From: a virus
Strand: one strand, 5' to 3'
Virus record (IMG/VR): IMGVR_UViG_3300046007_001070
Location: 1-33,038 of that record
Length of the DNA stretch: 33,038 nt
Positions 1-31,350 of this stretch are shown in pieces (position 1 is the first letter of the stretch; each line of letters opens with the position of its first letter). Below the pieces are notes generated by a model. That model ran no database searches, had not been told where the DNA came from, and was given only the letters and a program-made list of their open reading frames with translations. The translations under genes and the position numbers were made by a program.

Positions 1-3000
1 GGGCTACTGAAGAAAGCTGAGACTACTCAGGCAGGACGCCAGTGGGCGCAGTACGCAGACCCCGACACCCAACCCAAGTGGTCGGAACTCTCCGATGCCC
101 AGAAAGAGCAGTGGCGCAAGGCGGTCATCGACGACCGCAAGCCCAGCATCGCTGCTGCCGAGGAGATCGCTCCACCAAAAAAAGCCGAGGCGGCACCAGC
201 CGCCGTCCCCGCCGCCCTTCCTGAGACAGACGCCGAGTTGTTGGCCGATGCCATCCGCAACGCGGAAGGGGCCACGGATACGCGCAGCTTCAAGGCGGCT
301 ATCGCCACGGTGGTCGAGTACGCCTTCTTCGACACCGATCCCAACAACCGCGCACTGGGCGAACAGGCACGTGCCTTCCTTGCGAACACGCAGTTCAAAG
401 ACGGGCAGCAGTCGAGCATCGACGAAGTGTTCTTGGATCAAGCCAACACGAACCTGCAACTTACTGCCGTTGTCAAAGACAAAGAGCGCCCGTGGTTCAC
501 CTACGCGGTGAGCCGTAACCTTGTCCCGAGTCTCACGGCCAAGATCATCAACATGCCTGCGGTCTACAAATCGCGGCAGTCGCCTGTCAGTGGTGTGATC
601 GCCACGACCAAGCCGGTGGAGACTACTGCCCAGCAGATGACTGAGACGCCACAGGCCAAGCTGGGTGAGTTGATCAGCGACTTGATCTCGCAAATCCGCA
701 CTGTGTCGGCGCTCAATCAGGAAGTGAAGTTCCGTGGTACGACGTATCCCAACATCGTGGAACTTGCCAAGGAACTCTATGCCAAGACCGATGCGGCTGG
801 TCGCAAGTACATCGTTCGTGGCTACCCGCTGAGTGAGTACTTCACCGCCAAGGGCGAGCCGAAGATGCTCAAGTCGGGTGGTCGATTCCTCATCTCTACC
901 AAGGTGCTGTCCACTGCCGAGCAACGCAAACTTGAGCAGGAGCAGAAGGAAGCTGCGAAGGCGCTCGCTGAGGCCGAAGCTGAGGCCCGTGCTGCCGAGG
1001 CTGAACGTGCGCGTCTGGAGAAGGAGGGGTTCCGTGAGGAAGATTCTTGGGATAATGACGACGGTATGTTCTATCGTGATGACGGAGCCGAGATTCCGTC
1101 CACGGTGCCTATCGGTCGCATCCGGTTACTGGTCCAGAGTTTCCTGAACAAGCTCCGCGCCAAACCCACAGTTCACATATACGCCAACGTCGCAGACCTC
1201 AAACAACGCAACCCGGAACTCTACGCACGGGCTGCTGCCGCGCGGCAGCAAGGTGATTTTGATACGACTAAGGCGGCTGGCTACTCGTTTGGGCAACCCG
1301 AAGCCGAAGGCACCTTGCTTACTCGTCGCCAGTTTTTGCGCGGTGTGGGTGCTGCCCTTGGTTCATTGAATCTACCCAAGCCATCCAAGGAGATGGAACT
1401 CAGTCTGCTGACTGATGCGTGGAATGCGTCCATTGAGGTCTACAACGCTTGGTTTAGAACAGCGGCAAAGTTTGCTCGTACTGAATCCTTGCGCGATTTT
1501 GCGCTAGCGCAAGCTGGCACAAACGGTGAAAGCCTGATGGATGTTGCACGAACCAAGAGGTTGCGCGACTTCCTCTATAACGTCGAATACAACGAAGCCT
1601 ATCAAGGTGATGGGTACGACTACGCACTTAGTGAACTGTTAGCAAAAGATGGTGTGTCCGCACTAGCCGATTTGCATCAGGCTATGCAGCAGATGCGGCA
1701 GCAGTTTGTAGATCAGGCGGGACAGACTAAAGACAAGTTCCCCGGTGCGCACGTCATCATCTTCTCCGACTTCATCCGCACTGAGCAGCAACTGAAGTTT
1801 GTCCTTGCGCACGAGACGCTGGGTCACTTTGGTTTCCGGGGTGTTGTCCCCAAGGCCAAGCTCAACGAGACGCTCAACCGCATCTACGACATCGACCCCA
1901 CGGTCCAAGCTGGTGTGGATGCCATGCTCGCAGCCAACGAGGGGATGTCCAAGACAGAAGCCATTGAAGAATTTCTTGCCGATAACGCAGCCGACCTCGA
2001 CACGTCCATCATCGCTCGCATCTGGAACGTACTGAAGAACTTCCTCAACAAGTTGGGATTCCAGTTCCAAGACGATGAAGCTCGCTACTTCGTGAACCAA
2101 GCGCGGAAGTACGTGCGCCGTGGTGGTACCGGGCAGTTTGTCAGTGCTCGTGCTGTCGTGGGTGACATGGAGCAGATGGATCAGGACCGCGACGACGGGC
2201 GCTATGCTCGCTATGCCGCTGGTGATCTGGCTTCCAAAGCGTTTGGACTGAGCGGACTGAGCAGACCCTACAGCGCCACGGGTGGACTGATGGGTGCAGC
2301 GCAAGCCTTTACCGACCGCATGTTCGGTGCGCGACGCGATGTGCCGGGGTTGGTGGCGAACCTGCTGGAGCAACTGCAAACGCTGGACAACAAGGCGCGA
2401 CGCAGCGACGGACTGAGCCAGATTTACCGTATCTTCGAGAAGCAGCAGCAACTGGCCCGCTCGCTGTTGTCCAAGTACCAGCGGATGACATCGTTCTCGC
2501 ATTCGCCGGATGTGGGTTTCTTCGGTGCGGGTGTGTCCGAGCAGGACAAGGAGAAGGCTGGCGAGTTGTTGGCGCATGCCGCCCTCCTGCGCTCGCAGCA
2601 AGTGACCGATGAACTTCTGAAGAAGTACCCTGACCTCGTGATGATCGACGCCGCAGGCAACGTCACGGTGGACCCACGGGTGCGGGATGAGATCGAGAAG
2701 GCTGGCTTTGTTACTGCCGAGGAGTTCCGCAAAGGCTTCGACATTGAGTACCGGGACGGCGAGGATAAGGTCATCTCCAAAGTCCGGTTCCAGTTCGATG
2801 TCGATGAGAACAGTCCGATCTGGCAGGTCTACAAGGAGATGCGCGAGACGGTCAACGAGGCTGCCATCGACCTCATGCTGGCTAACTTCGAGACGGCTCA
2901 GATCGAAGGCAAGCGTGTCATCTCTGACCTCAACACCAAGCGTCGTGGTGCCAACGTGTTTACGCAAGATGATCTTGCGGCGATCCGGCGTGCGGCAGAT

Positions 3001-5775
3001 ATGTACAAGAACATGCGCTACGCAGGCAGTGACGTGGCAAACGCTGGTGTGGAGATCAAGCGCAAAGCAGATGAGACATCGGAGGAGTTCCTCGTAGCGT
3101 TTGGCCGTGCGCTGTTCAACGACGATGTGTACGCAGTGTGGATGAAAGACCCAGCCGCCAAGCCTGAGATTCAACGCGATCTCGCGGAGTTCCAGAAGGC
3201 TGAGTACGACGATCTACGTGCTGCGCTTCCGAGTCTACGGGCCAAGGTCAAGAGCGACCAGCAGTCGTTTGCGGTACAGAAAGCAATCCGCGACTTGTTC
3301 CTGTTTGATCTGCAATCGAAGAACGCAGACTACTACGCCAAGCGCACGATCCTTGGTTCCTACGTACCGTTCACGCGCCGTGGTTCCGAGCAGGTGCGGC
3401 TTGTGGCAGTCGATGCCCGAGGCAACCCCATCGCGCTGGACGAAAACGTGCGAGCAATCCTGCCGTACTTCCAGTTCAATAGTCGTAGCGAAGCTCTGAA
3501 AGCTGCCGAAGAACTCGATAACGAATTCGGTGGTGGTAACGAGTGGACGTTGCTGGATGATGCGGGTGCAGAGATCAAGGTGCGCTTCAAGGCTGAAGTA
3601 TCGAAGGTGCGCCAGTCGCCCGATCTGACCGAGGCTGTGAACTTCAACGAGTTCGTATACGTCCTGAACCGGCTGAATATCAACCTCACGCCGCAGGCAC
3701 GGGAACGTGTTGTCACGACACTGACGAACCAGAATGCTCGCGCACGCCGTAACCTCCAGCGTTCGGGTACTCCGGGCTGGGACAAGGATGTGGTGCGTTC
3801 AATCTCGGAGCATCTGGAGACATCTGCTCACGTCGCCGCGAAGAAACTCTATCGCCACCGGCTCGATGACATCCTGCTCAACGACTCGAACTGGTTGGGT
3901 GATGACCAGAAACTTCGTGCGTTGAAAGCTGCTGTCGATAACGCGACTTCCGATGGCGAACGTGCTCGCGCCAAACGCGCATACGATGAGTACGCCTACA
4001 TGTACCGCTACATGAAGGCGACCGGTAAGGGCAACACCGTTGAGATCGATGGGCAACAGGTACCCACTCTCGGGCGTGGCGAAGACTACCGCGAAGAAGC
4101 CAAGAGTGTCCTGCGCTGGTACAGCGAAGCGGGCAACATCGAAGACTCCACCGAGGACATGCTGTCGGGTGAAGCGGGTTCGCGGCTCAAGATGTTGACT
4201 GTGTTGATGCAGTTGGGCGGCTCCGTTGCCACCGCAGTTATCAACCTTGCTTCGCTGGCGACGCATAGTCTTCCCTATCTCGCCCACTACAACTCCTCGC
4301 GGGGGTTTGGAGGTGGGTACGGTTTCGCTAAAGCCCATACCGCCCTGTGGAAAGCGGCGCGGGATGTCGTTAATCCGAAGCTCGCAGACGATGCGTTCCT
4401 GAACGATCTGGTTGAAGGCCGCGAAGACATCACCCGGTTTAACTTGACCGAGGATGAAGCTCGGTTCCTGTTTGAGCAGACCGAAGCTGGCACCCTGCAA
4501 GCAGCGCAGTTCAACGCGCTTGTTGGCACCGCCCGTGGCAAGGTGTTCAACAACAAAGCCCAAGCTGCAATCAAGCTGTGGATGTCGATGTTCTCCTACA
4601 CCGAGCAGGCTAACCGTCGCGTCACGGCACTGGCTGCGTACCGGCTGGAGAAGGAGCGCCTGCAAGCTCAGGGTGTGACCGACGAGAAGCAACTTATTGC
4701 TGAGGCAACCGAAGCAGCACGGCGGGCGGTGAACACCGCGCAAGGCGAGTACGCCATGTTCAACCGGCCAGAGATGGCACGAGGCAACGTCTTGCAGTAC
4801 ATCTTCATGTACAAGCAGTTCGTGATCATCACCGTGCAGTTGCTGCGTTCGATGCCGATCAAAGGGCAACTGCTGATGCTGGGCTTTTTGTTGGTGGCCT
4901 CGGGCCTGAAGGGTCTACCGTTTGCTGAAGACATCTTCGACATCGTGGACACCATCTCGCAGAAGCTGGGCCTGAAGACCCCGAGCATTGAAAAAGCGAT
5001 GGCCGAGTGGATCGACGATGTGGCTCCGGGCGCAACTCCGTATGTGATGCGGGGTATCCTTGACCGTATGACCGGTGCCACGATGTCTACACGTTTTGGC
5101 ATGGGCGATCTGGTGCCGCTGACTGGTGCGTTCAAAGCGGGCGCTGACCCGGCTCGTGAGGTAGCGGACTTCGCGGGTCCGGTGTTTGGTGGTATCTCAG
5201 GGTTGGTCGGTACGGTTGGATCGCTCGGGAAATATGGTGCGGAAGTGATCGGGTTGCGCGATGACACCACGTCACTCACCAGCATCCTGCGCGACTCCCC
5301 TGTGGCTGCGGTACGGGCGATCACAGATGGTCTGCTGTACCTCAACGACGGCATGATTACCAACGCACGTGGACAAGTTGTGGCGAAGGAAGCGCCCTAC
5401 CACGTAATCCTTACGCGGATGCTGGGCTTCTACCCGGCCATTGCCACTGAGCAGAACGACATCGTGCGGCTGTCCAAGCAGGTAGCGGATTACGGCAAAG
5501 CAATCAAAGCGGAGTATGTTTCTGCGTATGTGAAGGCCAAGCTCGACAACGACACTGAGCGTATGAACGAGATCGCCAAGGACGTGGAAGCGTGGAACGA
5601 GGACGCCAAGGGCACCGGGCTGGAGATCACATCGTTTGTACGCTCGGCCAATCGTGCTGCGCTCGAAGCGTCGCGGCCTACCGCACTGCGCTACCTCAAG
5701 TCCGCGCCGAAGCAGATGCGTCCTGAAACGATTGAACTGCTGCGGATCAACGGGCTTGAGGATGAGATTCGCTAG
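1..5775 (+). CDS. Giant polyvalent virion protein with LPD38-like region, 5' end outside window
   Basis: The frame is open from the first base, so the start lies upstream; 1924 residues are visible. In window numbering there is an alanine/glutamate-rich coiled coil at about 307-344, a Tat-like TRRQFLRG at 441-448, and a zincin-like HETLGH at 604-609 followed by an acidic EEFLAD segment that could give a third ligand. Hydrophobic segments lie near 1399-1430 and 1620-1645. The stretch from YTEQANRR through NRPEMARG to FMYKQF resembles the LPD38 region (large polyvalent protein-associated domain 38) of phage polyvalent proteins. Such proteins are generally thought to be packaged in the virion and delivered with the DNA, which suits the length and membrane segments. 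Peptidase activity is inferred from the motif only. The gene is convergent with the primase gene and shares a CTAG stop with it. Confidence 0.85.
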   Translation, partial: GLLKKAETTQAGRQWAQYADPDTQPKWSELSDAQKEQWRKAVIDDRKPSIAAAEEIAPPKKAEAAPAAVPAALPETDAELLADAIRNAEGATDTRSFKAAIATVVEYAFFDTDPNNRALGEQARAFLANTQFKDGQQSSIDEVFLDQANTNLQLTAVVKDKERPWFTYAVSRNLVPSLTAKIINMPAVYKSRQSPVSGVIATTKPVETTAQQMTETPQAKLGELISDLISQIRTVSALNQEVKFRGTTYPNIVELAKELYAKTDAAGRKYIVRGYPLSEYFTAKGEPKMLKSGGRFLISTKVLSTAEQRKLEQEQKEAAKALAEAEAEARAAEAERARLEKEGFREEDSWDNDDGMFYRDDGAEIPSTVPIGRIRLLVQSFLNKLRAKPTVHIYANVADLKQRNPELYARAAAARQQGDFDTTKAAGYSFGQPEAEGTLLTRRQFLRGVGAALGSLNLPKPSKEMELSLLTDAWNASIEVYNAWFRTAAKFARTESLRDFALAQAGTNGESLMDVARTKRLRDFLYNVEYNEAYQGDGYDYALSELLAKDGVSALADLHQAMQQMRQQFVDQAGQTKDKFPGAHVIIFSDFIRTEQQLKFVLAHETLGHFGFRGVVPKAKLNETLNRIYDIDPTVQAGVDAMLAANEGMSKTEAIEEFLADNAADLDTSIIARIWNVLKNFLNKLGFQFQDDEARYFVNQARKYVRRGGTGQFVSARAVVGDMEQMDQDRDDGRYARYAAGDLASKAFGLSGLSRPYSATGGLMGAAQAFTDRMFGARRDVPGLVANLLEQLQTLDNKARRSDGLSQIYRIFEKQQQLARSLLSKYQRMTSFSHSPDVGFFGAGVSEQDKEKAGELLAHAALLRSQQVTDELLKKYPDLVMIDAAGNVTVDPRVRDEIEKAGFVTAEEFRKGFDIEYRDGEDKVISKVRFQFDVDENSPIWQVYKEMRETVNEAAIDLMLANFETAQIEGKRVISDLNTKRRGANVFTQDDLAAIRRAADMYKNMRYAGSDVANAGVEIKRKADETSEEFLVAFGRALFNDDVYAVWMKDPAAKPEIQRDLAEFQKAEYDDLRAALPSLRAKVKSDQQSFAVQKAIRDLFLFDLQSKNADYYAKRTILGSYVPFTRRGSEQVRLVAVDARGNPIALDENVRAILPYFQFNSRSEALKAAEELDNEFGGGNEWTLLDDAGAEIKVRFKAEVSKVRQSPDLTEAVNFNEFVYVLNRLNINLTPQARERVVTTLTNQNARARRNLQRSGTPGWDKDVVRSISEHLETSAHVAAKKLYRHRLDDILLNDSNWLGDDQKLRALKAAVDNATSDGERARAKRAYDEYAYMYRYMKATGKGNTVEIDGQQVPTLGRGEDYREEAKSVLRWYSEAGNIEDSTEDMLSGEAGSRLKMLTVLMQLGGSVATAVINLASLATHSLPYLAHYNSSRGFGGGYGFAKAHTALWKAARDVVNPKLADDAFLNDLVEGREDITRFNLTEDEARFLFEQTEAGTLQAAQFNALVGTARGKVFNNKAQAAIKLWMSMFSYTEQANRRVTALAAYRLEKERLQAQGVTDEKQLIAEATEAARRAVNTAQGEYAMFNRPEMARGNVLQYIFMYKQFVIITVQLLRSMPIKGQLLMLGFLLVASGLKGLPFAEDIFDIVDTISQKLGLKTPSIEKAMAEWIDDVAPGATPYVMRGILDRMTGATMSTRFGMGDLVPLTGAFKAGADPAREVADFAGPVFGGISGLVGTVGSLGKYGAEVIGLRDDTTSLTSILRDSPVAAVRAITDGLLYLNDGMITNARGQVVAKEAPYHVILTRMLGFYPAIATEQNDIVRLSKQVADYGKAIKAEYVSAYVKAKLDNDTERMNEIAKDVEAWNEDAKGTGLEITSFVRSANRAALEASRPTALRYLKSAPKQMRPETIELLRINGLEDEIR

Positions 5776-12950: not shown

Positions 12951-13178
12951 CTATGGCGTCATGCGTAGCAATGCGTCGTACTTGGCGAGTTCGATCATGC
13001 CAACGAACGCTCTCATGTCCTCCAGCCCAGAGGAGAATCGGTGGTAGTCGTCTCCGATCTTCACGAAGATCAGTATCTCTGTGGCATCCGGGCTTTCCTT
13101 GACTTGGTTGATGGTGGCCTCCAGAAGTTGGAGGACATCTTGGTTGCGTGGTGCGCGTTTGATCTCAGCGATGGACAT
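12951..13178 (-). CDS. Unknown 75-residue protein downstream of DNA polymerase
   Basis: A short acidic protein with a predicted alpha-beta pattern: an N-terminal basic helix, a hydrophobic strand (EILIFVKIG), and two C-terminal helices. Its ATG overlaps the polymerase stop by one base (TGATG), so translational coupling to the polymerase is likely. I do not recognise the family. Similar small proteins follow polymerase genes in other phages, so a polymerase accessory role is possible but not shown. Confidence 0.8.
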   Translation of the reverse strand: MSIAEIKRAPRNQDVLQLLEATINQVKESPDATEILIFVKIGDDYHRFSSGLEDMRAFVGMIELAKYDALLRMTP

Positions 13179-15037
13179 CAGGTATCTCCGTAGTTGGCAG
13201 CTTTGCCAGACTCACAGGCAACGGGCAGACCCGGTGCCCACTTGGGTGGGGTAGACATCACGGCAACAAGTTTGGCTTCAGCTTCCTCAGCCTCTGCCTG
13301 CGGTGCGGTGATGATGATCTCGTCGTGGACTTGGAATGCCACGTGGTAGGTCTGTCCGATTGCAGCCATCTGCTCACGGATGACGATAGCAGCGAGAGCT
13401 TGGATCAGGTTCTCCGTCACCTTGCCACCGTAGATGCGGGTCCACGGTATGTCATCGGTGGCAGCGCCCAGCAGCTTTTCTTTTACTACCTTGCGGTAGG
13501 AGCGAGCATCCGAGATGTACTCGAAGCCACTCTGGTTTTGCCGCAGTGCCGGGTACTGAATCCTCAACGTGTTGGGCAGTGTGATGCCGTCCTTGTCGAA
13601 GGTCACCACGTCATGCAGGGTACCGTCGCCACCGTTGAGCATCTTAGTCAGCATGTCGCCACACCGCTGCCAGAACTGCACGATCCTGAAGTTCTTGGCA
13701 CGATAGATTCGGACGATGCGCTCGGCTTCGCTGGTGTCCACCTTCACACTGATGCCGCCTTGTCCTATCTCCAGTGTGCGCCGCAGCTTCTCAGCACCCA
13801 TGCCGTAGCCGAGTCCGAGAATGCAGGTCTTGCCAACGAACCGTTCTACCTTGTCGGCCTTGGTGATCTTGCGACCGTAGACTTCAGTTGCGAACTCCGA
13901 GTACACATCCCGCTTCTCACGGAACGCATCGACCAGATCGGACTGCCCCGCGATATACGCCACCATGCGGGCCTCGATCTGTGAGGAGTCACATGCGATG
14001 ACAACCTGCCCCTCCGGTGCCTTCAGTGCCTTGCGTATGGTCGTGTTGCCCCGGCTCGGCAGGTTCTGAAGGTTGAGTTTGTCGCCCCCGGAAAAGCGCC
14101 CCGTGTGCGCCCCATAGTAATTAAGCATGATGGGCAAGCGCCCCCGCCCCGCCACGCCGATGAGTGCCTCGGTGCGCGTCTCCTCGATGGTGGACTTGAC
14201 GCCCAAGCGAGCGGACACTAACGCTTGCACACGTATATCAGGATGTTCCAGTAAGTCGGTGAACCCCTTGTCGGTTTTGCTGAACGCCCATGTCTCCTTG
14301 CCTGTGGTCGCACTCACCTTGCGCGGTGGCGGTACACCCAACCCAACAAGCGCCGCCGCAAACTTGCCGTTGGACATGATGTCGGCGGTCGAGACATCCA
14401 CCTCCTCCATCAGCTTGGCTTTGCGCTCCCGCACTTCGACAAGGTGCTTCTCCAGTAGCGGCATGTCGAGTTCGATCACTGGCTCGGTATACATGCGCAG
14501 CGTCTGGTCAATCACCAACAACTCGCTCGATGGGAAACCGACCTTCAGCTTGTCGAACAGCGCCTTGGTCATGTCCACATCGTTGATGCAGTACTTGCCG
14601 TACTGAGCGAGGTCAGCCTCAGTGAAGTCAGCCTTGCGCTTTCCAAGCGCGGCCACTACCTCATCGCCCTTCTTGCCCAGCCCATAGTACGCAGCCAGCG
14701 CAGCGAGACTGCCACCCACCGTGATGTTGTGGGATGGTCGGGCCATGCTCAGTGTGTCCAGCCACAGCCTCGGACGGATACCGAAATGCCACGACAGGAT
14801 GGCACCATCGAACGCTGTGTTGTGACACAGGATCGCTCGCTTGCTGTAGTCCAGTGACTTGAGAAATCTGCCGGGGTTGTCGCCGCTGTACCAGTCGGTC
14901 GGATAGTCGTTGACTTTGACACCCACACCGATCACCTCGAACAGCGGACTGCGGATGTACGCCTCGGTGGTCATCTTCGACAAGCTGTATTCCTTGTCGT
15001 AGTAGGTTTCAAAGTCGATGGTCACGATGTCCATCAT
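13178..15037 (-). CDS. Family-A DNA polymerase with 3'-5' exonuclease
   Basis: 619 residues. The exonuclease domain shows DFET (D8, E10), HNTAFDG (D77) and INDVD (D153), so proofreading is probably active. The polymerase domain has GRFSGGDKLNLQNLP at 313-327, motif A ACDSSQIEARM with D350, motif B RFVGKTCILGLGYG with R399, K403 and Y411, and motif C VHDEI with D572. This is the phage replicative type related to bacterial Pol I, without a 5'-3' exonuclease. The ATG overlaps the preceding gene by four bases. It is shorter than T7 gp5, and no thioredoxin-binding loop is evident by eye. Confidence 0.95.
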   Translation of the reverse strand: MMDIVTIDFETYYDKEYSLSKMTTEAYIRSPLFEVIGVGVKVNDYPTDWYSGDNPGRFLKSLDYSKRAILCHNTAFDGAILSWHFGIRPRLWLDTLSMARPSHNITVGGSLAALAAYYGLGKKGDEVVAALGKRKADFTEADLAQYGKYCINDVDMTKALFDKLKVGFPSSELLVIDQTLRMYTEPVIELDMPLLEKHLVEVRERKAKLMEEVDVSTADIMSNGKFAAALVGLGVPPPRKVSATTGKETWAFSKTDKGFTDLLEHPDIRVQALVSARLGVKSTIEETRTEALIGVAGRGRLPIMLNYYGAHTGRFSGGDKLNLQNLPSRGNTTIRKALKAPEGQVVIACDSSQIEARMVAYIAGQSDLVDAFREKRDVYSEFATEVYGRKITKADKVERFVGKTCILGLGYGMGAEKLRRTLEIGQGGISVKVDTSEAERIVRIYRAKNFRIVQFWQRCGDMLTKMLNGGDGTLHDVVTFDKDGITLPNTLRIQYPALRQNQSGFEYISDARSYRKVVKEKLLGAATDDIPWTRIYGGKVTENLIQALAAIVIREQMAAIGQTYHVAFQVHDEIIITAPQAEAEEAEAKLVAVMSTPPKWAPGLPVACESGKAANYGDT

Positions 15038-16254: not shown

Positions 16255-16884
16255 TCACACCCCGAACTTGGCAGCGGTACTCATGGCAGTCAGCTTGCCG
16301 AGGTCAACGTCGATGGTCACTTCTTTCTTTTCCTGCACCTTGATCTCACGGTGACGATCCTTGTACTCATCGGGGATCAGTTCCCAAAGCGGAGGCCAGA
16401 CCTTCAGTGCAGGTGCCAGCGTAGCGTGTGCTTCGATTACCTTCGTAACCATATCGACAAACTCATCCTGTCGCTGCACGGCTGCACGAACCCTCTCGTT
16501 CCATGCCTGAACCTCAGCCTTGAAGTCAGACCACACCACATGATCTTTGAGTGTGATCTCCTCGCGGTAGGAGTACTCTCGCTTCGCAAGGTCGGAGTGC
16601 GGAAACGAATACGGCCACGGCTGCGGTGATGCGAACGTAAACTCAAGGCCACACGACAAGTCACCGATCTTCTCGATCTTGATCCGGTTGACGGTGTTCA
16701 GCCAGCCCACAGGAAGTTGTGAGATGAGCGGCTTGACTTCAAGGAACATCGTGTCGTAGATACTCTGGCCCCATGCGTTGTCAGGACGGGTCGCCGTAGC
16801 CCGATCAATGGGAGGGCGCATCTTGATCTTCGCTTTTGCTTTGATTGCGTCACAGAGTTCTTTGCTGAATCGTACTGTTGCCAT
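16255..16884 (-). CDS. Possible Nmad5-like nucleotide-modification-associated protein
   Basis: 209 residues. It begins VRFSKELCDAIKAKAK, has LPVGWLN in the middle after a helical segment, and ends with a helix followed by LKVWPPLWELIP. This order recalls phage proteins labelled Nmad5 (nucleotide modification associated domain 5). The resemblance is by eye only, so the family call is tentative. The protein appears soluble and has no visible catalytic motif. It lies in the middle of the leftward array between two small proteins. If the call is right, the phage may carry modified bases or handle modified nucleotides, yet no clear base-modifying enzyme is in this window. Confidence 0.55.
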   Translation of the reverse strand: MATVRFSKELCDAIKAKAKIKMRPPIDRATATRPDNAWGQSIYDTMFLEVKPLISQLPVGWLNTVNRIKIEKIGDLSCGLEFTFASPQPWPYSFPHSDLAKREYSYREEITLKDHVVWSDFKAEVQAWNERVRAAVQRQDEFVDMVTKVIEAHATLAPALKVWPPLWELIPDEYKDRHREIKVQEKKEVTIDVDLGKLTAMSTAAKFGV

Positions 16885-17563: not shown

Positions 17564-18727
17564 TCACATCTCCACGATGTCACCGAAGGGCGCTTTGCCC
17601 GGATCGGTCGTTACCCACAGGACAGGTGCGTCGGGCTGCTCACCGAACGAGTTGCAGCACAGGTCAGTAAGGAACACGATGGCAACCGGCTCGATACCTA
17701 GTTCGATGATCTTCGCAAAGACCGGAGCGAAGTCAGTGCCGCCACCACCATGAGGCTTGATGTCGAGGTCATCCTCTGGTCCGTAGGATTCAACATGGCT
17801 GATGTCGCTGTCGAAATACATCACGTGGATACGTGCTGGCACAAGATCATCCTTGACCTTGGTAATCTCCGCTGCGAACTGGTTGATGGTGCGCTGATCG
17901 ATGGACCCTGAGCAGTCCACTGCGAACACCACTTCGCCCATCACCTCACCGCTGACACTGGGCAGGTACAGTCCTTGTGCAATGAAGCGACGATTGAACC
18001 GGGCAAAGGATCGCTGGTCGGTCCGTGCTTTGACGAGGAACCTCTGCATCACATCACGCCAGTCCACCTTGGGTTGCAGCACCTCGTCCACCAGACGCTG
18101 CATGTTGGCACTCAGTTTGCCCATCATCTTGGCAGCTTGTGCCGCTTGCGCCACCTTGACTTTCATCTCCGCTTGCTGCTGTGTCTTCTCAGCCGGTGAA
18201 CCCGGAGCATCTTCACAGTTGTCGAGCGGATCGCCGTGCCCACCATACCCACCGCCATCGTCATCATCCTGATCTGGCAGCAGGTTGTAGATACCGTCTG
18301 ATGTACCGCCACCAGCTTGGTATATCTGGTCGTTGAGAAGTCCCTGCTTGGGCATCTTGCCGATGTGTTCATCGGTCAACAACTTGTTGATCACATAGTC
18401 GCCAGCCATGTTCCAGCGCCTACCCTGACGCTCCCCACGTCGGTAGTTGTGCTCCAGCATGGGGTGGAAACACTCGTGGGCTACAAGGAACTTGAGTTCC
18501 TCATCGGTCAGCGTACTGATGAAGTCCGGGTTGAACTTTACATACTTGCCGTTGGTTGCTGCCGTTGGCACCTCACGGGTGATGATGAACGGCAGGTTGA
18601 GAGCGATGGTGCCTACGAACGGATGCTCCAAGACCAGTGCAGTCTTGGCTTTCGCCAGTCGGATGTTGAGTTTGGCTTCCTCTTGCGGAGTGAGCGGCTT
18701 GGTTTCAGTCGGTGCTAGGGTTGTCAT
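17564..18727 (-). CDS. HExxH metallopeptidase-like plus VWA protein (DUF2201-type)
   Basis: 387 residues. The N-terminal domain has HECFH at 84-88 followed by H93, a gluzincin-like site. An acidic glycine-rich linker covers about 152-173 and a glutamine/alanine-rich helix follows. The C-terminal VWA-like domain has the MIDAS motif DCSGS at 271-275, then FDSDI, GGGGTDF and FLTD. This matches the DUF2201 arrangement of a putative metallopeptidase fused to a VWA-like domain. In MoxR-type systems such proteins are the metal-binding partner of the AAA ATPase. The ATG overlaps the DUF3150-like gene stop by one base, so the pair is probably coupled. Substrate unknown. Confidence 0.9.
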   Translation of the reverse strand: MTTLAPTETKPLTPQEEAKLNIRLAKAKTALVLEHPFVGTIALNLPFIITREVPTAATNGKYVKFNPDFISTLTDEELKFLVAHECFHPMLEHNYRRGERQGRRWNMAGDYVINKLLTDEHIGKMPKQGLLNDQIYQAGGGTSDGIYNLLPDQDDDDGGGYGGHGDPLDNCEDAPGSPAEKTQQQAEMKVKVAQAAQAAKMMGKLSANMQRLVDEVLQPKVDWRDVMQRFLVKARTDQRSFARFNRRFIAQGLYLPSVSGEVMGEVVFAVDCSGSIDQRTINQFAAEITKVKDDLVPARIHVMYFDSDISHVESYGPEDDLDIKPHGGGGTDFAPVFAKIIELGIEPVAIVFLTDLCCNSFGEQPDAPVLWVTTDPGKAPFGDIVEM

Positions 18728-19575
18728 CACTTGGCTCCCATGAATACGGACATTGCGTCCATGATTTTCTTGGCTTCTGCTGCCGTGTCACGGCGCAGGT
18801 CGGGGTCGTTACGCAGTGCTTCAGGATGTTTGATCAGCTTGCCCTCAACTTCTTGTCGCAAGGCTTCGAGGTTGGGATCGTCACTGAAGTTGAGACGAGG
18901 CAGGATGGCGCAGATTTCCCGAGCGTTCTCCACCATCGAGTCACGGAAGATCGCTTTGGGATCGGCCAGCTTCTCAGCCATGTGCTTTACTCTGTCGTAC
19001 AACCGAGTCCATACCTCCTGCATTGCAGTGGACTGCGCTTGCTGCACCCTGCGCTCAACATCTTGCTGGATGCGTGACAGTTCCTCGCTGCCGATGCTGA
19101 CCCTGAAGTCAGTGCTCGGTACCGGGAAGATCGCCATGTCCATGCGGAACTTGTCTGCCAACTCGAACCGCATGGGATAGTCAGCCGGATCGTAAAGCTG
19201 CCCCAGTACACGCTGCGCATCCACCTTGAGACTGTCGTAGTTGTCCACGAAAGTCTGCACCAGCGACTCCCACTCACCCTTCTCCTTACGGAAGTCAGCC
19301 ATGAAGCTGAGGTAGTTGGCAGTGGGCAGCATCATGGTGCCTTCGATACCCCACGGCAGCGTGTTCTCGTAGAACTTGGTACGGATTTGGGTTGTCTTCT
19401 TGTGGATGTTGTCCAACAAGGAGTTCATAGGCAGCAGCGCCTTGTTGTAACGACCCTGATCCACGAAGTTGTGGAAGGTATCAGCCACCTGCCGAGTGGC
19501 TTTCTTGTCGTACTTCCGGGCAGTCCACTGACTGATGTTAAGTTGCACGAGCAGAGCACGGTCATTGAGATTCAT
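18727..19575 (-). CDS. DUF3150-like protein, middle member of AAA/VWA triad
   Basis: 282 residues, almost all predicted helical, with long charged segments; the centre is marked by PWGIEGTMMLPTANYLSF and the region after it by DPADYP. Position and features fit the DUF3150 family, commonly encoded beside MoxR-type ATPases and VWA proteins in phages. The start at 19575 follows GAGGAG; the longer open frame adds 29 unlikely residues. It probably bridges the ATPase and the VWA protein or is their substrate adaptor; this is inferred from gene order. Confidence 0.8.
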   Translation of the reverse strand: MNLNDRALLVQLNISQWTARKYDKKATRQVADTFHNFVDQGRYNKALLPMNSLLDNIHKKTTQIRTKFYENTLPWGIEGTMMLPTANYLSFMADFRKEKGEWESLVQTFVDNYDSLKVDAQRVLGQLYDPADYPMRFELADKFRMDMAIFPVPSTDFRVSIGSEELSRIQQDVERRVQQAQSTAMQEVWTRLYDRVKHMAEKLADPKAIFRDSMVENAREICAILPRLNFSDDPNLEALRQEVEGKLIKHPEALRNDPDLRRDTAAEAKKIMDAMSVFMGAK

Positions 19576-19603
19576 AGTTGTCACTCCTCTGTAAATGGAT
19601 GGG

Positions 19604-20590
19604 TTAGAACAGCACGTCCTGATGACTGATCGACCACTTCGTAAACGCTTGTGTGTTGGCAAGGTCAGGGTTGCGACGGCAAGCGTAGGAGACGGTCAGT
19701 ACACTGAACTCAGGGGGCATACGCTCGGCATAGGTACAGACCCGTTCCAAGTTGGACTCGGTAGCCCGCTGGGACAGAGCACCGGCCAGTGCATACAGTG
19801 TTGCCGGGTCTTTGGGAACGTCAGCAGTTTGAGGGTTCAGCAGGATTGCATCGGGGTTAGGCAGCTTGCGCCAGATACGGATGAACCCTACGAACTCGGC
19901 GGCTGCACCCTCACCCACTGCACCCTTGAAGCACTCGAACTCAGCTTCGGCAGGGACAGTACCCAGCACATCACTGACACCCTCCACCCATGAACGAGGC
20001 GTCGGGTTCTGGTCACGCTGCGGATCGAAGTCATGCAACAAGTTGGGACGGAAACGAAGGAACGATGTGACCTCAGCCTTGACACCGTTGTCGATCATCC
20101 ACTTGGTAGAGTCGTCGAGGTGTGTCTCCAGTTCAAGCACAGTCTCGCGGTTACGCAGGTGACTCAGGATGCGGTTGGCACCAGCACGGTCAGCTTGCCT
20201 GTTGCCAGTGGAGATAACCTGCCACCCATCGGGCATGGATACACCATGCAGAGTCCGGGCCTGACAGATATTGGCAAGCACTTTCTGAAGGTCAGCACCC
20301 GCTTGGTTGCGGTCATCGAACAGCAGGATGCCAGCATCGGGAGCCTTGCCCTTGACCGGGAACCAGTCTGGCAACTTGTAGTGGAGCGACTGCTCCCCGT
20401 CGGGAAACAGAATACCAAAGTCCTCGACCAGCATGGTCGGCATGTGACGCTCGACGATGGGCACATCCAGTTCACTGGCAACTTCGTGGACGATGGTTGT
20501 CTTGCCACCACCGGGAGCACCCTCGATACAGACGGTACGCTGCATGGGGAACAGGGACTTCAGGGTTGCTTTGAGAAGTTCGGCTCGCAT
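19604..20590 (-). CDS. MoxR-type AAA+ ATPase
   Basis: 328 residues. Walker A is GAPGGGKT at 24-31. Walker B is ILLFDD at 88-93, with aspartate in place of the usual catalytic glutamate. A sensor-1-like STGNRQAD lies near 120-127, and RNRE follows as a candidate arginine finger. The C-terminal lid is helical. MoxR ATPases act as chaperones that assemble or remodel metal- or VWA-containing partners. The start at 20590 has AAGGAG and is one base from the preceding stop; a longer frame adds 23 residues through the neighbour. The gene opens the three-gene set with the DUF3150-like and HExxH/VWA genes. Confidence 0.9.
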   Translation of the reverse strand: MRAELLKATLKSLFPMQRTVCIEGAPGGGKTTIVHEVASELDVPIVERHMPTMLVEDFGILFPDGEQSLHYKLPDWFPVKGKAPDAGILLFDDRNQAGADLQKVLANICQARTLHGVSMPDGWQVISTGNRQADRAGANRILSHLRNRETVLELETHLDDSTKWMIDNGVKAEVTSFLRFRPNLLHDFDPQRDQNPTPRSWVEGVSDVLGTVPAEAEFECFKGAVGEGAAAEFVGFIRIWRKLPNPDAILLNPQTADVPKDPATLYALAGALSQRATESNLERVCTYAERMPPEFSVLTVSYACRRNPDLANTQAFTKWSISHQDVLF

Positions 20591-25294: not shown

Positions 25295-25466
25295 CTCGTA
25301 TGAGGGTGTGCCCGCAGCAAGGCTGAAGTCCTCGGCTGAGGCCAAGAATCTCGAAGCTGCTTTGCGGGCGCACGGCACGTCCTACCAGACCAAGATCAAC
25401 AAGTCCAAACGCACGGGGCGAGAGTTCATCGTGCTGCTACTGACACGGGCACCCAATGCCGCTTGA
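25257..25466 (+). CDS. Unknown 69-residue protein between terminase genes
   Basis: GGAGG lies six bases before the ATG. The protein overlaps the small terminase gene by 38 bases and the large terminase start by 11, so all three are coupled. It contains RLKSSAEAKNLEAALRAHG, a helix, then a basic KSKRTGREFIVLLL strand. It may be a packaging accessory. No family recognised. Confidence 0.75.
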   Translation: MSLPSSIQNQFTDSYEGVPAARLKSSAEAKNLEAALRAHGTSYQTKINKSKRTGREFIVLLLTRAPNAA

Positions 25467-26844
25467 CATCAACTATACGCCCCCGCCCACGGGCAAGAAG
25501 TTCATGGCGTCGGACGCCAAGATGCGCGTTCTCATGGGGCCGGTGGGCAGTGGCAAGAGCGTGACGTGCTCGTTTGAGATCGTGCGCAGGGCATCGATGC
25601 AAAAGCCCAACGCCAATGGCATTCGCAGGACACGGGCGGCTGTGGTGCGCGAAACCGTGCGGCAGTTGCAGGACACGACGATCAAAACCTTTCTCGACTG
25701 GTTTCCACCGGGGGTGTGCGGCAACTACATGCGCACCACCAAGACCTACTTTTTCAAAGTGGGGGATGTCGAGTGCGAGATTATGTTCCGGGCGTTGGAT
25801 GATGCCGACGATGTGGCTAACCTGAACTCGTTGGAGTTGTCGTTCGCGTGGTTTAACGAGTGCCGGGATATTCACCCTGACATCGTGGACGCCATGTCAA
25901 AACGGATCGGGCGGTTTCCGTCGGCCAAGGACGGTGGCCCCACGTGGCATGGGATGTGGGCTGATACCAACCCGCCGACGATGGATACGTGGTGGTACTA
26001 CCAGATGGAGGGGCTGGACCCCAAAGATGGAGTCTCCCCCAACAACAACGGGTGGGCTGTGTTCCGACAGCCTTCGGGTCGCAGTGCCTTAGCAGAGAAC
26101 ATTGAGAATCTGCCGGAGGGATACTATGACACGCAGGGTCGCAGCGAGGAGTACATCCGGGTTTACATCGACGGCGAGTACGGACTGTCCTCGGCTGGTA
26201 TGCCGGTGTACAAGTACTTCCGGCCTGACTACCATATGGCTGCGGCTCGACTACGCCCGGTCATTAACGGGGTCAGACCCGTTGTTGTCGGGATGGACTT
26301 GGGGCTTACCCCAGCGGCTGTTGTCGGGCAGCAAGACCCGAGAGGTCGAGCCTTGATACTGGACGAGGCTGTGTCGTTCGACATGGGCATCCAGCGGTTT
26401 GTGCGCACCATGCTCAAACCCTTGCTGTACGAACGCTTTCCCGGTGCGCCGGTGCTTGTCGTGGTGGACCCGGCGGGGGTGCAGCGTGCCCAGACTGACG
26501 AGCGCAGCGCAGTTGATATAATCAAAGCAGAAGGGCTGCGGGTGATACCGGCCAAGACCAACAGCGTGTCGGCTCGCATCAACGCGGTGGACTCCTACCT
26601 GATGCGGCAGGTGGACGGCGACCCCGGTTTCCTCGTAGACCCCCGCTGCACGCATCTCAAAGCGGCGATGATGGGTGGCTACCGGTACCGCCCCAAGGGC
26701 GACGGCGACATCGACAAGAACAAGCACTCCCACGTGGCTGAGGCGCTACAGTACCTGATGCTGCACATTGCTTCGGCGGGGGAAGGGCACTACCTGCCCC
26801 AGCGCCGGGAGATTCGCACCCTTGCGGCTGCTGGGTGGACGTGA
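25456..26844 (+). CDS. Terminase large subunit
   Basis: 462 residues. The ATPase domain has Walker A GPVGSGKS at 28-35 and Walker B FAWFNE at 130-135 with catalytic E135, followed by a WADTNPP segment at 168-174 in the place of the coupling motif. The C-terminal nuclease domain has the first acidic residue at D281 (GMDLGLTP), then VVVDPAG (D338), and ends with KNKHSHVAEALQYLM. It drives DNA into the prohead and cuts the concatemer. The ATG overlaps the upstream gene. A terminator follows within about 50 bases. Confidence 0.93.
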   Translation: MPLDINYTPPPTGKKFMASDAKMRVLMGPVGSGKSVTCSFEIVRRASMQKPNANGIRRTRAAVVRETVRQLQDTTIKTFLDWFPPGVCGNYMRTTKTYFFKVGDVECEIMFRALDDADDVANLNSLELSFAWFNECRDIHPDIVDAMSKRIGRFPSAKDGGPTWHGMWADTNPPTMDTWWYYQMEGLDPKDGVSPNNNGWAVFRQPSGRSALAENIENLPEGYYDTQGRSEEYIRVYIDGEYGLSSAGMPVYKYFRPDYHMAAARLRPVINGVRPVVVGMDLGLTPAAVVGQQDPRGRALILDEAVSFDMGIQRFVRTMLKPLLYERFPGAPVLVVVDPAGVQRAQTDERSAVDIIKAEGLRVIPAKTNSVSARINAVDSYLMRQVDGDPGFLVDPRCTHLKAAMMGGYRYRPKGDGDIDKNKHSHVAEALQYLMLHIASAGEGHYLPQRREIRTLAAAGWT

Positions 26845-26892
26845 TACAGTGACCGAGGTAGTGTTGTCATTGTCTCCTTCGTGGATGGATTG

Positions 26893-26926
26893 GCCCCGGC
26901 GAGCGATCTCCGGGGCTTTCTTTTTC
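26893..26926 (+). terminator. Rightward terminator after large terminase
   Basis: GCCCCGG and CCGGGGC form a 7-bp stem around a ten-base loop, followed by TTTCTTTTT. It ends terminase transcription just before a new promoter. Confidence 0.85.
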
Positions 26927-26927
26927 C

Positions 26928-26956
26928 TTGACAGTGGGTATACTTGTTGGTAGAAC
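26928..26956 (+). promoter_or_regulatory. Rightward promoter before portal gene
   Basis: TTGACA, exactly 17 bases, then TAGAAC (6/6 and 4/6 matches). It begins two bases after the terminator, so head genes may be transcribed independently of the terminase. TATACT at 26939 is too close to the -35 to be used with it. Confidence 0.65.
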
Positions 26957-26974
26957 CCGCCCAAAGGAGTCGGC

Positions 26975-27034
26975 ATGGCAACCAAACCGTTTACGATGTA
27001 CTCGACCAACACCTGCTCGTACTGGGACAAGTAA
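26975..27034 (+). CDS. 19-residue ORF before portal, glutaredoxin-like N-terminal motif
   Basis: Encodes MATKPFTMYSTNTCSYWDK, with a strong AAAGGAG SD, and its TAA is followed immediately by the portal ATG in the same frame. The portal gene has no good SD of its own, so this ORF probably loads ribosomes for it. FTMYSTNTCSYWDK resembles the first strand and active-site region of glutaredoxins (FT-x-YS-xxx-C-xx-C-DK), with tryptophan in place of the second cysteine. It could be a leader peptide, a functional micro-protein, or the remnant of a longer gene. Confidence 0.6.
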   Translation: MATKPFTMYSTNTCSYWDK

Positions 27035-29101
27035 ATGGCTGGTCTGACATTCCTGCGGGTTGTGAGCAACTCGGAGTTGGCGCGGCAAGAGAAGGAAGCC
27101 GCAGAACGTGCCGTGCAGGAGCGTCAGAATCAGCCTGTCATCATCGGGCTGGTTGGGTATTTGCGTGAGTGTTGGGATGCGGCGCAGATGGCGAAGCGCC
27201 CCATCGAGCAGAAGATGCTCCAAGCCTTACGGCAGCGCAACGGCGAGTACGAAGCTGACAAGCTGCGCCAAATCCGGGCGCAGGGCGGCTCCGAGGTTTA
27301 CATGATGATCACGGAGGTCAAGTGCCGTGCTGCCGAATCATGGCTGCGCGACATTCTGCTTGACAGTGGTGCTCCTCCGTGGGACTTGCAGGCGACCCCC
27401 ATCCCCGATCTCAACCCGGCGCAGGCCCGTGAAGTGCAGGCCATGTTTGCGGAACGGGTTCTGAAACTTGTTGAGGAGTACGGCAAGGCTCCCAACATCG
27501 AGGAGATGCGGGAGTTGCGCGAGATGGTGTCGCAGGACTACCGTTTCGGTCTGCTGCGGGAGGCCCAGCTTCGGGCCGACAAGATGAAACTCAAGATTCA
27601 GGACCAGTTCGCGCAAGGCGGCTGGGGTGATTCGTTCAACGATTTCGTTACCGACCTCGTGACATTCCCCTGTGCCTTCATCAAAGGGCCGGTCGTGCGT
27701 CGGCAGCGGGCGTTGGGGTGGAAGATCGATGCGACCGGTCGGACAGTTGTGGAGCCGATTGAGCGCCTTGGGCCGGAGTATGAGCGGGTTGATCCGTTCT
27801 ACATCTACCCCGAGCCGGGGATCAGCACCATCCACGAGGGCTACCTGTTCGAGTACCACCCCCTGAGCCGGATGCAGCTTGCTGATCTGATCGGGGTACC
27901 GGGCTACGACGATGACGCGATTCGACAGGTGCTGGAGATCGGCAACGGTCAGTCGTGGATGAATGAGGATGTGGAACTTCAGAAGAACGAGGAGGAGCGC
28001 AAGTACTACTCGTACATGCGGCCTACGACTGAGTTCGATGCGCTGGAGTTCTGGGGTAAAGTCAGCGGCAAGATGCTGCGCGAGTGGGGGCTGTCTGAGG
28101 AAGATGTACCCGACGAAGCCCGTGAGTACGATGCCAACGTCTGGGCGGTGGGCAACATCGTCATCAAGGCGATCCTGAACTACGACCCCCTTGGCGAGAA
28201 GCCGTACTGCAAGACCTCGTTCATCAAGTGCCCCGGTGCGTTCTGGGGTAAGGGCATCCCTGAGATCATCGAAGACTTGCAGGGTGTGTGCAATGCCGCT
28301 GCTCGTGCGCTGGTCAACAACATGGGTATCTCCTCGGGGCCGCAAGTCGAGGTCAACGTCGAGCGTCTACCCCCCAACGAAGACATCACGCAGTTGGCAC
28401 CGTGGAAGATTTGGCAGACTATCAACGATCCTGTGGGGTCGAGTGCGCCTGCGATCCGTTTCACGCAGCCCGACTCACGTGCTTCTGAACTCATGGCGGT
28501 CTATGAGAAGTTCAGCCGGTTGGCTGACGATCACTCGGGGATTCCGGCCTACGTCTACGGTGATCTCAACGTGCAAGGCGCTGGCCGCACGTCCTCCGGC
28601 CTATCTATGCTGATGGGCGCGGCTGGCAAAGGGATTCGCCAAGTTGTGATGCACATCGACAGTGATGTGGTCAAACCCATCGTGATGCGTCAGTTTGTCT
28701 ACAACATGCGCTACGATGAGGATGAGTCTATCAAGGGCGATGTTGAAGTGGTTGCCAAGGGCGCGATCAATCTCGCGGTCAAGGAAACCGTCAACATCCG
28801 TCGCATCGAGTTCCTCAACGCAACCGCCAACCCGATTGATCTTGAGATTCTCGGGAAGGAAGGACGCGCCTCTATCATCCGTGAAGTGGCGAAAGGGTTG
28901 CAGATGCCTGTGGAAGAAGTTGTCCCATCTCGGGAGAAAGAGGGCTACACGAGTCGCATTACCGCGAGGGCGAACGCTGTTGCTGCACAGCAGCAGGCAC
29001 AGCAGCCCGAAGGCGGTACGCCTCAACAGCCTGATGGTTCTCCCAAAGGTGGGATGGCGGCTAACACGGTAGTAAGCCGTGCCGGGGGGATGGCTGCATG
29101 A
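27035..29101 (+). CDS. Portal protein
   Basis: 688 residues, between the large terminase and a putative scaffold gene, which is the usual place of the portal gene. The N terminus is helical and charged. The middle contains GWGDSFNDFVTDLVTFPCAFIKGP and GPEYERVDPFYIYPEPG. A further stretch near NVQGAGRTSSGLSMLMGAAG is typical of large podovirus-like portals. The C terminus is glutamine/glycine-rich. The portal forms the ring through which DNA is packaged and ejected. Its ATG follows the 19-residue ORF stop directly; weak GGGA is the only SD-like sequence. Confidence 0.87.
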   Translation: MAGLTFLRVVSNSELARQEKEAAERAVQERQNQPVIIGLVGYLRECWDAAQMAKRPIEQKMLQALRQRNGEYEADKLRQIRAQGGSEVYMMITEVKCRAAESWLRDILLDSGAPPWDLQATPIPDLNPAQAREVQAMFAERVLKLVEEYGKAPNIEEMRELREMVSQDYRFGLLREAQLRADKMKLKIQDQFAQGGWGDSFNDFVTDLVTFPCAFIKGPVVRRQRALGWKIDATGRTVVEPIERLGPEYERVDPFYIYPEPGISTIHEGYLFEYHPLSRMQLADLIGVPGYDDDAIRQVLEIGNGQSWMNEDVELQKNEEERKYYSYMRPTTEFDALEFWGKVSGKMLREWGLSEEDVPDEAREYDANVWAVGNIVIKAILNYDPLGEKPYCKTSFIKCPGAFWGKGIPEIIEDLQGVCNAAARALVNNMGISSGPQVEVNVERLPPNEDITQLAPWKIWQTINDPVGSSAPAIRFTQPDSRASELMAVYEKFSRLADDHSGIPAYVYGDLNVQGAGRTSSGLSMLMGAAGKGIRQVVMHIDSDVVKPIVMRQFVYNMRYDEDESIKGDVEVVAKGAINLAVKETVNIRRIEFLNATANPIDLEILGKEGRASIIREVAKGLQMPVEEVVPSREKEGYTSRITARANAVAAQQQAQQPEGGTPQQPDGSPKGGMAANTVVSRAGGMAA

Positions 29102-29313
29102 TCAAGCCCGAACCTCAAGTCGTGAAGGCGCTCGCGTTCTTTGTCCGTCAGCACCCGGAAGTTTTGGCGTGGCTGAAGGATTGGGAGTTGCGAGAGTTGA
29201 AGCGACTTCCAAGCGCGGTAGAACACCCAGCAGTCTTTCAGGGGCGCTGTCAGGTGTTGGGCGAGATTGCCAGTCTCGCTGAAGAAGCCCCTGCTTTGGC
29301 GGCAAAGTTATGA
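29098..29313 (+). CDS. Unknown 71-residue head-region protein
   Basis: Begins in an ATGA overlap with the portal stop. It is helical, with MIKPEPQVVKALAFFVRQHPEVLAWLKDWELREL followed by a second helix pair. Small proteins at this place sometimes assist head assembly or scaffolding. No motif identifies it. Confidence 0.75.
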   Translation: MIKPEPQVVKALAFFVRQHPEVLAWLKDWELRELKRLPSAVEHPAVFQGRCQVLGEIASLAEEAPALAAKL

Positions 29314-29357
29314 CGAAACTCGCCGTCTAATCACGCACACCGATAGGAGCGTTCAAC

Positions 29358-30410
29358 ATGGCCCTTCCAGAGCAGATTCGTAAACAGACTGAGGCAGTTC
29401 AGGAGTTGTACAAGCAACTCAACCCGGACACCAGCGCAGGCACCCCCGCAGAGGGCGCAGCCAATGGCGGTGCTTCGTCCGTTGAGGCTTCCACTGGTAC
29501 ACCACCTGCCGACAGCGCACCTGTTGCGACCAATCCTGCTCCGTCGCCCACTGATGAGCCGAGGACGGGCGATGACAATGTATCGGAAGACCCCAACTCT
29601 GAGACGTATGCTCAGAAGTGGCGCACTCTCCAAGGCATGTATAACGCTGAAGTTCCGCGTCTGCACCAGCAGAACCGCGAAATGTCCCAGCGTGTGCAGC
29701 AGATGGAGCAGTTGCTGGCTTCCATTTCTGCTCAACAAGCTACACCTGCTACTCCTCAAGTCGCTGACAAACTTGTCACCGAGCGAGATGTTGAGGAGTA
29801 TGGGGAGTCGCTTGACGTGATGCGCAAAGTGTCCCGCGAGGAACTTGTTCCCGTTGCACAGCGCCTCGCTCAGATTGAGCAGACCTTGCGTCAGATGCAG
29901 ACGAGCGTAGTTCCGCAGGTTCAAGCGGTCGCTCATCGCCAACAACAAAGCGCAGAGCAGCAGTTCTGGTCCGATCTGTCTACGGCGGTCCCCAACTTCC
30001 GTCAGATCAACGACAACACGGCGTTCCAGTCGTGGTTGTTGCAAGCCGACCCTCTCACGGGTATTACGCGCCAGACCTACCTTGATGATGCTCAACGTGC
30101 GCTAGACGCAGGACGTGTTGCCAATTTCTTCCGTGCTTGGCTGGAGTCCACTGGACAAGCCACCGTTGCTCAATCCACTGGTGCCGCACCAACCTCTGAG
30201 TTGGAGAAGCAGGTTTCCCCCGGTCGCTCACGTAGCACCGGAACGCCTGCGACCGCCAAACAAGGCAAGGTATACACCCCGCAAGACATCCAGAAGTTCT
30301 TCAATGATGTCCGGTCGGGGAAGTACAAAGGCCGAGAGCAGGAGCGGGACCGTATCGAACGCGACATCTTCGCTGCACAGCGAGAGAATCGCATCCAAGT
30401 GAATGCTTGA
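29358..30410 (+). CDS. Scaffolding protein
   Basis: 350 residues. The N terminus is followed by a long proline, alanine, serine and threonine linker (about 28-75). A glutamine-rich helical region follows (HQQNREMSQRVQQMEQLL), and the C-terminal end is basic and helical (GREQERDRIERDIFAAQREN). The gene sits directly before the major capsid gene and has a TAGGAG SD. Scaffolding proteins show this disordered plus helical make-up and a basic C terminus that binds coat protein. The call rests on position and composition, as scaffolds share little sequence. Confidence 0.8.
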   Translation: MALPEQIRKQTEAVQELYKQLNPDTSAGTPAEGAANGGASSVEASTGTPPADSAPVATNPAPSPTDEPRTGDDNVSEDPNSETYAQKWRTLQGMYNAEVPRLHQQNREMSQRVQQMEQLLASISAQQATPATPQVADKLVTERDVEEYGESLDVMRKVSREELVPVAQRLAQIEQTLRQMQTSVVPQVQAVAHRQQQSAEQQFWSDLSTAVPNFRQINDNTAFQSWLLQADPLTGITRQTYLDDAQRALDAGRVANFFRAWLESTGQATVAQSTGAAPTSELEKQVSPGRSRSTGTPATAKQGKVYTPQDIQKFFNDVRSGKYKGREQERDRIERDIFAAQRENRIQVNA

Positions 30411-30426
30411 TTAGAGGAGTTTTATC

Positions 30427-31350
30427 ATGTCTTTCCCAGTCTCCCCCGGACGCCCGAATTATTCGGGTAACTTCATCCCCGAAATCTGGTCGGGCAAACT
30501 GATCGAGAACTTCTACGATGCCACCGTGCTCGCAGCGATCTCGAACACCGACTATGAGGGCGAGATTCGCCAGTATGGCGACACCGTGAACATCCGCACC
30601 ACGCCGGAAATCACGATCCGTGACTACGTGAAGGGCCAAACCCTGACCGTTGAGAATCCCGACAAGCCCAAGCTCCAGCTTGTCATCGACAAGGGCGAGT
30701 ACTTCGCGTGCGTCGAGGACGATGTGGACAAGGTTCAGTCGGACATCAACCTGATGGATACTTGGTCGAAGGACGCCTCTGAGCGTATGAAGATCAAGAT
30801 CGATCAGCGCGTGCTCACCGACATCCTGCCCGGTATTGCTGCGGCCAACAAGGGTGCCGCCGCTGGTGCCATCTCTGCGTCGTTCAATCTGGGTACGAAC
30901 GCTTCGCCTTTGACTGTGACCAAGGATGGCGCTGGTGCCACCACTCCGGTGGTTGACCTGCTCGTCGATCTGGGCACTGTGCTGGACGAGGCCAACGCTC
31001 CCGAAGACAACCGCTTTGTGGTCATCCCTGCCAAGATGGCTGGTCTGATCAAGAAGTCGGAACTGAAGGACGCTGCCCTGACCGGCGACAGCATGTCGAT
31101 TGTTCGTAACGGTCGTCTGGGTATGATTGATCGTTTCACCGTGTACGTGAGTCACAACCTGTACAAGACCTCTGGTAAGTACAGCATCATCGCTGGACAC
31201 AAGTACGGCTTCACTTTCGCTTCGCAGATGACCAACATGGAAACCATCCGCAGCGAGAGCACCTTCGGCAACATCATCCGTGGCCTTCAGGTCTACGGCT
31301 ACAAGGTTGTGAAGGGCGAAGCTCTGGCGCAAGCCGTCGTTCAGTTCTGA
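30427..31350 (+). CDS. Major capsid protein
   Basis: 307 residues with GAGGAG just upstream. It begins with a short extended region, then FIPEIWSGKLIENFYDATVLAAISNTDYEGEI and GDTVNIRTTPEITIRDY, a pattern of many phage coat proteins. A helical spine (EDDVDKVQSDINLMDTWSKDASERMKIKID) and a beta-rich C-terminal part follow. It comes directly after the scaffold gene. It is probably of the HK97 fold, as are nearly all tailed-phage coats, though this is inference. Confidence 0.88.
   Translation: MSFPVSPGRPNYSGNFIPEIWSGKLIENFYDATVLAAISNTDYEGEIRQYGDTVNIRTTPEITIRDYVKGQTLTVENPDKPKLQLVIDKGEYFACVEDDVDKVQSDINLMDTWSKDASERMKIKIDQRVLTDILPGIAAANKGAAAGAISASFNLGTNASPLTVTKDGAGATTPVVDLLVDLGTVLDEANAPEDNRFVVIPAKMAGLIKKSELKDAALTGDSMSIVRNGRLGMIDRFTVYVSHNLYKTSGKYSIIAGHKYGFTFASQMTNMETIRSESTFGNIIRGLQVYGYKVVKGEALAQAVVQF

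Follow-up and report, generated by a model that had tools for sequence, protein, structure and literature searches.

A conserved ATPase, DUF3150 and zincin-VWA gene cluster in a phage replication operon: a possible MoxR-VWA-type remodelling complex

What do three adjacent genes in the replication operon of a tailed phage encode, and on what might their products act together? The window, which is the whole stretch of DNA that was analysed, is a 33,038-base virus record from a tailed phage, and the features that bear on this question are as follows.

25456-31350, plus strand: terminase, head-tail connector/portal, scaffold-like and major capsid genes
19604-20590, minus strand: MoxR/midasin-type AAA+ ATPase of 328 amino acids (phrog_1297 at 3.5e-65, midasin profile match, motifs)
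18727-19575, minus strand: DUF3150-family protein of 282 amino acids, from the ATG at 19575 (relatives and structure match)
17564-18727, minus strand: zincin-VWA protein with DUF2201_N and DUF2201 (Pfam), ATG at 18727, alternative GTG at 18730
16255-16884, minus strand: Nmad5-like gene, directly downstream of the VWA gene (Pfam Nmad5 at 1.8e-4, below the cut-off)
13178-15037, minus strand: family A DNA polymerase of the same co-directional block, context and not a component (family matches and synteny)
Minus strand, replication block: primase/helicase, possible SSB, Gam-like protein, SNF2-type helicase, VRR-type endonuclease, PD-(D/E)XK exonuclease and the family A DNA polymerase

The three-gene cluster is located upstream of the polymerase gene on the same strand and runs from the ATPase ATG at 20590 to the last base of the VWA-gene stop at 17564. 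The coordinates, the three genes and the Walker A, Walker B (including Asp in place of Glu), HECFH and DCSGS motifs had been given in an earlier note made from the sequence, and all are correct on re-check. A gap of 28 nt, within which a ribosome-binding-like AGAGGAG is present, separates the ATPase stop from the DUF3150 ATG, and the DUF3150 TGA overlaps the VWA ATG by 1 nt (TGATG). The dN/dS values (approximately 0.10-0.13 for the ATPase, 0.14-0.25 for DUF3150 and 0.10-0.15 for VWA) indicate purifying selection and, together with the Pfam and PHROG scores, reveal that the cluster is real and not a product of chance. Additionally, the Nmad5-like, nucleotide-modification-associated gene neighbours 201 of 225 DUF3150 loci, some of which overlap, and may form a functional unit with the trio.

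Families and motifs of the three proteins

Among the solved structures in the PDB, the best match of the ATPase profile is to the AAA+ modules of midasin (2e-25), which places the ATPase in the MoxR/midasin group. Its motifs are Walker A GAPGGGKT (K30), Walker B LLFDDRNQA (D92-D93, in which Asp replaces Glu) and sensor-1 N130, with R148 as the candidate arginine finger and R199 as sensor-2; K30, N130, R148 and R199 are near-invariant in the alignment.

The zincin-VWA protein matches the Pfam families DUF2201_N (putative metallopeptidase, 2.5e-43) and DUF2201 (VWA-like, 1.9e-27), both far above the cut-off, and PHROG 1314 (phrog_1314) at 1.6e-100. This PHROG is labelled "HNH endonuclease", and the label was rejected for this protein, as the Pfam matches are to DUF2201_N and DUF2201 and include no HNH family; its use for phrog_1314 and in many phage records (e.g., H2, H5, H6 and H7) appears to be a labelling error that has propagated. 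The HECFH motif corresponds to H84-E85-H88, with D110 as the candidate third zinc ligand, and the MIDAS (DCSGS; DxSxS-T-D) consists of D271-S273-S275-T331-D355. These MIDAS residues and H84, E85, H88, H93 and D110 are unchanged in 131-132 of the 132 distinct sequences, among them that of phage N4. The exception for HExxH is a Variovorax plasmid protein (L162, 6007-7305), which carries ATVLH with an intact MIDAS and shows that at least one trio can do without cutting. In the structural model (pLDDT 87), the VWA domain is clearly recognisable (Z 13, 126 residues, rmsd 2.4), and the zincin part weakly matches the M48 peptidase 3c37 and selecase MJ1213.

The middle protein was described in the earlier note as helical and DUF3150-like, of which the family assignment stands by way of relatives and the description of the fold is only partly right. 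Against the Pfam family DUF3150 (PF11348, cut-off 24.9 bits), the window protein itself is below the threshold, with no match up to E=1. Among its relatives, 23 of 37 match the family with E-values of 1 or lower (the best being 8.8e-4), and a Tannerella MAG homologue (L154), which is 33% identical to the window protein, reaches 36 bits and is thus above the cut-off. The profile of the middle protein matches a DUF3150-annotated homologue from a Cupriavidus plasmid at 8e-58, and its AlphaFold model (pLDDT 86) matches the model of a viral "DUF3150 domain-containing protein" at 2.3e-18. The window protein is assigned to the DUF3150 family solely via the Tannerella relative, the Cupriavidus homologue and the structure match.

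The model is not purely helical, because an N-terminal alpha/beta part precedes a C-terminal four-helix bundle. No PDB fold is matched by the model at E < 0.001, with the N-terminal part barely covered, and residues 160-281 resemble generic four-helix bundles with Z up to 11.5, a value that is not meaningful for helical bundles. The computations were mostly performed on 18727-19572, which leaves out the first residue, so residue n of the model is residue n+1 of the protein. A search of the open literature found no paper naming DUF3150. This component is the little-known part of the cluster, and the combination of all three can be seen only in a few records, where each gene is annotated on its own.

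Linkage, distribution and the Walker B residue

Conserved adjacency, which had been set beforehand as the test of whether the genes form a system, is observed throughout 80 viral contigs fetched through the DUF3150 gene: the VWA gene adjoins DUF3150 on the same strand in all 80, and the ATPase gene precedes it in 77, the other three contigs ending within about 210 bases upstream of DUF3150. Over the fetched loci, many of which overlap, the order ATPase-DUF3150-VWA is present in 207 and a contig-limited DUF3150-VWA in 14; the order ATPase-VWA-DUF3150 is present in three, namely L167 and two from the same Tannerella MAG (L154). DUF3150 without a partner gene was never seen among these loci. The pairwise distances of the ATPase, DUF3150 and VWA proteins correlate over 13 divergent trios (r 0.56-0.80).

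Trios are also present in phage MinM2, in the Tannerella MAG and on four large plasmids, from Cupriavidus, Burkholderia, Variovorax and Rhodovastum, the first two of which are typed conjugative. DUF3150 is distributed over several unrelated phage groups and Burkholderiales plasmids, in the sampled loci always together with the pair. Among 395 Bacteroidota genomes, the Pfam family was detected only in the one from which the search began, and DUF3150 is absent from the N4, phiFa, Callisto and D519 genomes, searched at E up to 10. Scans of viral contigs with the plasmid DUF3150 and the N4 and L219 ATPases yielded no new groups, and none of the three genes is present in the stretches read of the polymerase-related Pseudomonas phages Rollin and KPP25. 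On the conjugative Burkholderia plasmid pBcn842-1 (L156), the trio lies directly upstream of VirB-type secretion genes.

The gene order in the window clade is ATPase, DUF3150, VWA, Nmad5-like, two small genes, PolA, exonuclease, VRR, SNF2 and Gam, in an operon that is co-directional with the primase and diverges from the terminase, portal, scaffold and capsid genes. Rhizobium phage RHph_TM27A carries ATPase, VWA, PolA, exonuclease, VRR, SNF2, Gam, SSB-like and primase genes without DUF3150. In 14 IMG/VR contigs related to the RHph_TM27A ATPase, DUF3150 is found in none, the VWA gene in 12 and, within the stretch covered, a downstream PolA in eight. Because this group keeps the order without DUF3150, DUF3150 is an optional part of a module that otherwise occupies the same place. 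A comparison of this shared replication neighbourhood between phages that have DUF3150 and phages that lack it, and between Walker-B Asp and Glu, offers a direct way to probe the machine and the contribution of its third subunit.

The Walker-B Asp is present in all 78 distinct ATPases of the window clade, and Glu is present in the five sequences from outside it. In a wider sample, Asp is found in two groups, the window clade (DDRNQA) and another with good support (DDxGQA/S), the latter comprising three Burkholderiales plasmids, the Tannerella MAG and the viral contigs L167, L219 and L220. Every sampled operon with the Walker-B Asp contains DUF3150, and all examined operons without DUF3150 have Glu (N4, D519, phiFa, Callisto, four plasmids and 15 RHph_TM27A-type loci); Glu is also kept in four DUF3150-containing lineages (MinM2/L237, L161, L173 and L180). 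The association of the Asp with DUF3150 is suggestive, but it depends on only one or two substitutions in a tree whose rooting is weak. The Asp could mean weak hydrolysis and need not mean an inactive ATPase. Natural DD Walker B motifs occur in DnaA and IstB.

Comparison with known systems and proposed action

The earlier note had placed the novelty of the locus in its phage context, which is not tenable. The ATPase and the zincin-VWA protein are homologues of N4 gp24/gp25, which belong to the 14-gene core of N4-like phages (PMC4193335), and Iyer et al. described a MoxR/metallopeptidase-vWA pair from jumbo phages in 2021 (PMC7824862). The pair often occurs without DUF3150: a tblastn search of phage records found a VWA relative in 525, and a relative of the window DUF3150 in only three. 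In N4 (Schitoviridae core), the ATPase and the DUF2201 zincin-VWA protein are homologous to those of the window, in the same order and with HExxH and MIDAS kept; however, the genome has no DUF3150, and Walker B is DE and not DD. The jumbo-phage pair has, by description, the same domain architecture, whereas DUF3150 is not mentioned in that report (PMC7824862), and in jumbo phage Callisto the pair is separated by other genes.

Among systems with a third gene, the cyanophages MinM2, Pag-Yong1 and Pra-JY27 carry ATPase, DUF3150 and VWA in the order of the window but differ in extra small genes between the components, a DE Walker B and an identity of 25-29%. The operons of Cupriavidus pRK1-1 and Burkholderia pBcn842-1 share the three genes, their order and the DD Walker B, although they are located on conjugative plasmids and not in a phage replication operon. 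Such relatives suggest that the system is useful to several kinds of mobile DNA and not to virions alone. VMAP ternary MoxR-vWA systems also have a third conserved gene beside MoxR and vWA, but in the order VMAP-MoxR-vWA against MoxR-DUF3150-vWA in the window (PMC7159879); this difference in order, together with listed Pfam matches of the middle protein that include no VMAP family, led to the rejection of this identity. A known defence system was also rejected, as the models of such systems give only short P-loop matches for the ATPase and none for DUF3150 or VWA. CbbQO, NorQD and RavA-ViaA likewise pair a MoxR-class AAA+ protein with a VWA partner, whereas their VWA proteins are, by published descriptions, without a zincin, and their targets are cellular enzymes.

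On the basis of homology, MoxR-VWA remodelling, which the earlier note had suggested, is the best-supported mechanism. The chances are about even that the three genes encode one MoxR-VWA-type, ATP-driven remodelling complex, which would act in replication or host takeover and would not be a part of the virion. The AAA+ protein would, as in its homologues, form a ring; the zincin-VWA protein would dock on this ring and grip a target through the MIDAS metal site; and the zincin, held next to the target, would probably clip it, because the zinc site is kept intact. DUF3150 may be a dedicated subunit that is not always present, and would most likely serve as a substrate adaptor or as a regulator of the ring, whose hydrolysis would be tuned by the Walker-B Asp. 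The most likely target would be a host protein or a complex engaged in replication or transcription. A ring-VWA complex is supported by the nearest PDB sequence match, as midasin is an AAA+ ring that itself carries a VWA domain, and the logic of MoxR-VWA partnership is established in CbbQO, where the MIDAS of CbbO binds an acidic residue of Rubisco (PMC4660213), and in NorQD, where a VWA finger of NorD is inserted into the NorQ ring (PMC13036017). Three observations count against the proposed complex: the Variovorax plasmid trio without HExxH; the Walker-B Asp, with its potentially weak hydrolysis; and phage RPP1, whose gp24/gp25 homologues lie close to the genes of four virion proteins (PMC4193335), an arrangement compatible with a role in assembly.

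It is possible, if somewhat doubtful, that the trio represents an undescribed three-component machine of mobile elements, common to phages and conjugative plasmids, in which DUF3150 would fit a hydrolysis-tuned ring (Walker-B Glu to Asp) and would give the N4-type pair a new target or control.

The alternative of a non-proteolytic chaperone, in which the zincin fold would be a binding domain only and the trio would remodel a partner or put metal into it, as NorQD does, is rather unlikely. Both NorQD (PMC13036017) and CbbQO (PMC4660213) function without proteolysis, and the Variovorax homologue lacks HExxH; however, HExxH and D110 are otherwise kept across the 132 proteins, from N4 to the window. 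Counter-defence, i.e., a complex that disassembles or cuts a host defence protein, would explain the spread over phages and plasmids and is consistent with the presence of the trio on unrelated mobile elements and with the rarity of DUF3150 in the Bacteroidota genomes. It is nevertheless improbable, because the pair is part of the N4-like core and not patchy (PMC4193335), and the trio is syntenic across the window clade, unlike typical accessory counter-defence genes.

Quite improbable is virion assembly or processing, in which the ATPase-VWA pair would help to build the particle and the zincin would process structural proteins, as proposed for the jumbo-phage pair by analogy with an archaeal virus pair (PMC7824862) and in line with the RPP1 arrangement, since the window and related phages carry the trio in a replication operon on the strand opposite to the terminase, portal and capsid genes, N4 transcribes gp24/gp25 in the middle phase (PMC4193335), and homologues are present on conjugative plasmids, which form no virion. 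Capsid maturation, one of the roles mentioned in the earlier note, is made less likely by the gene position. The replication-side position, the middle-gene timing in N4 and the presence on plasmids are the reasons for which the remodelling complex is assigned to takeover or replication.

Elsewhere in the window, a plus-strand open frame of 1845 amino acids (238-5775) matches two PHROGs that have no assigned function, and only in its final 500 residues.
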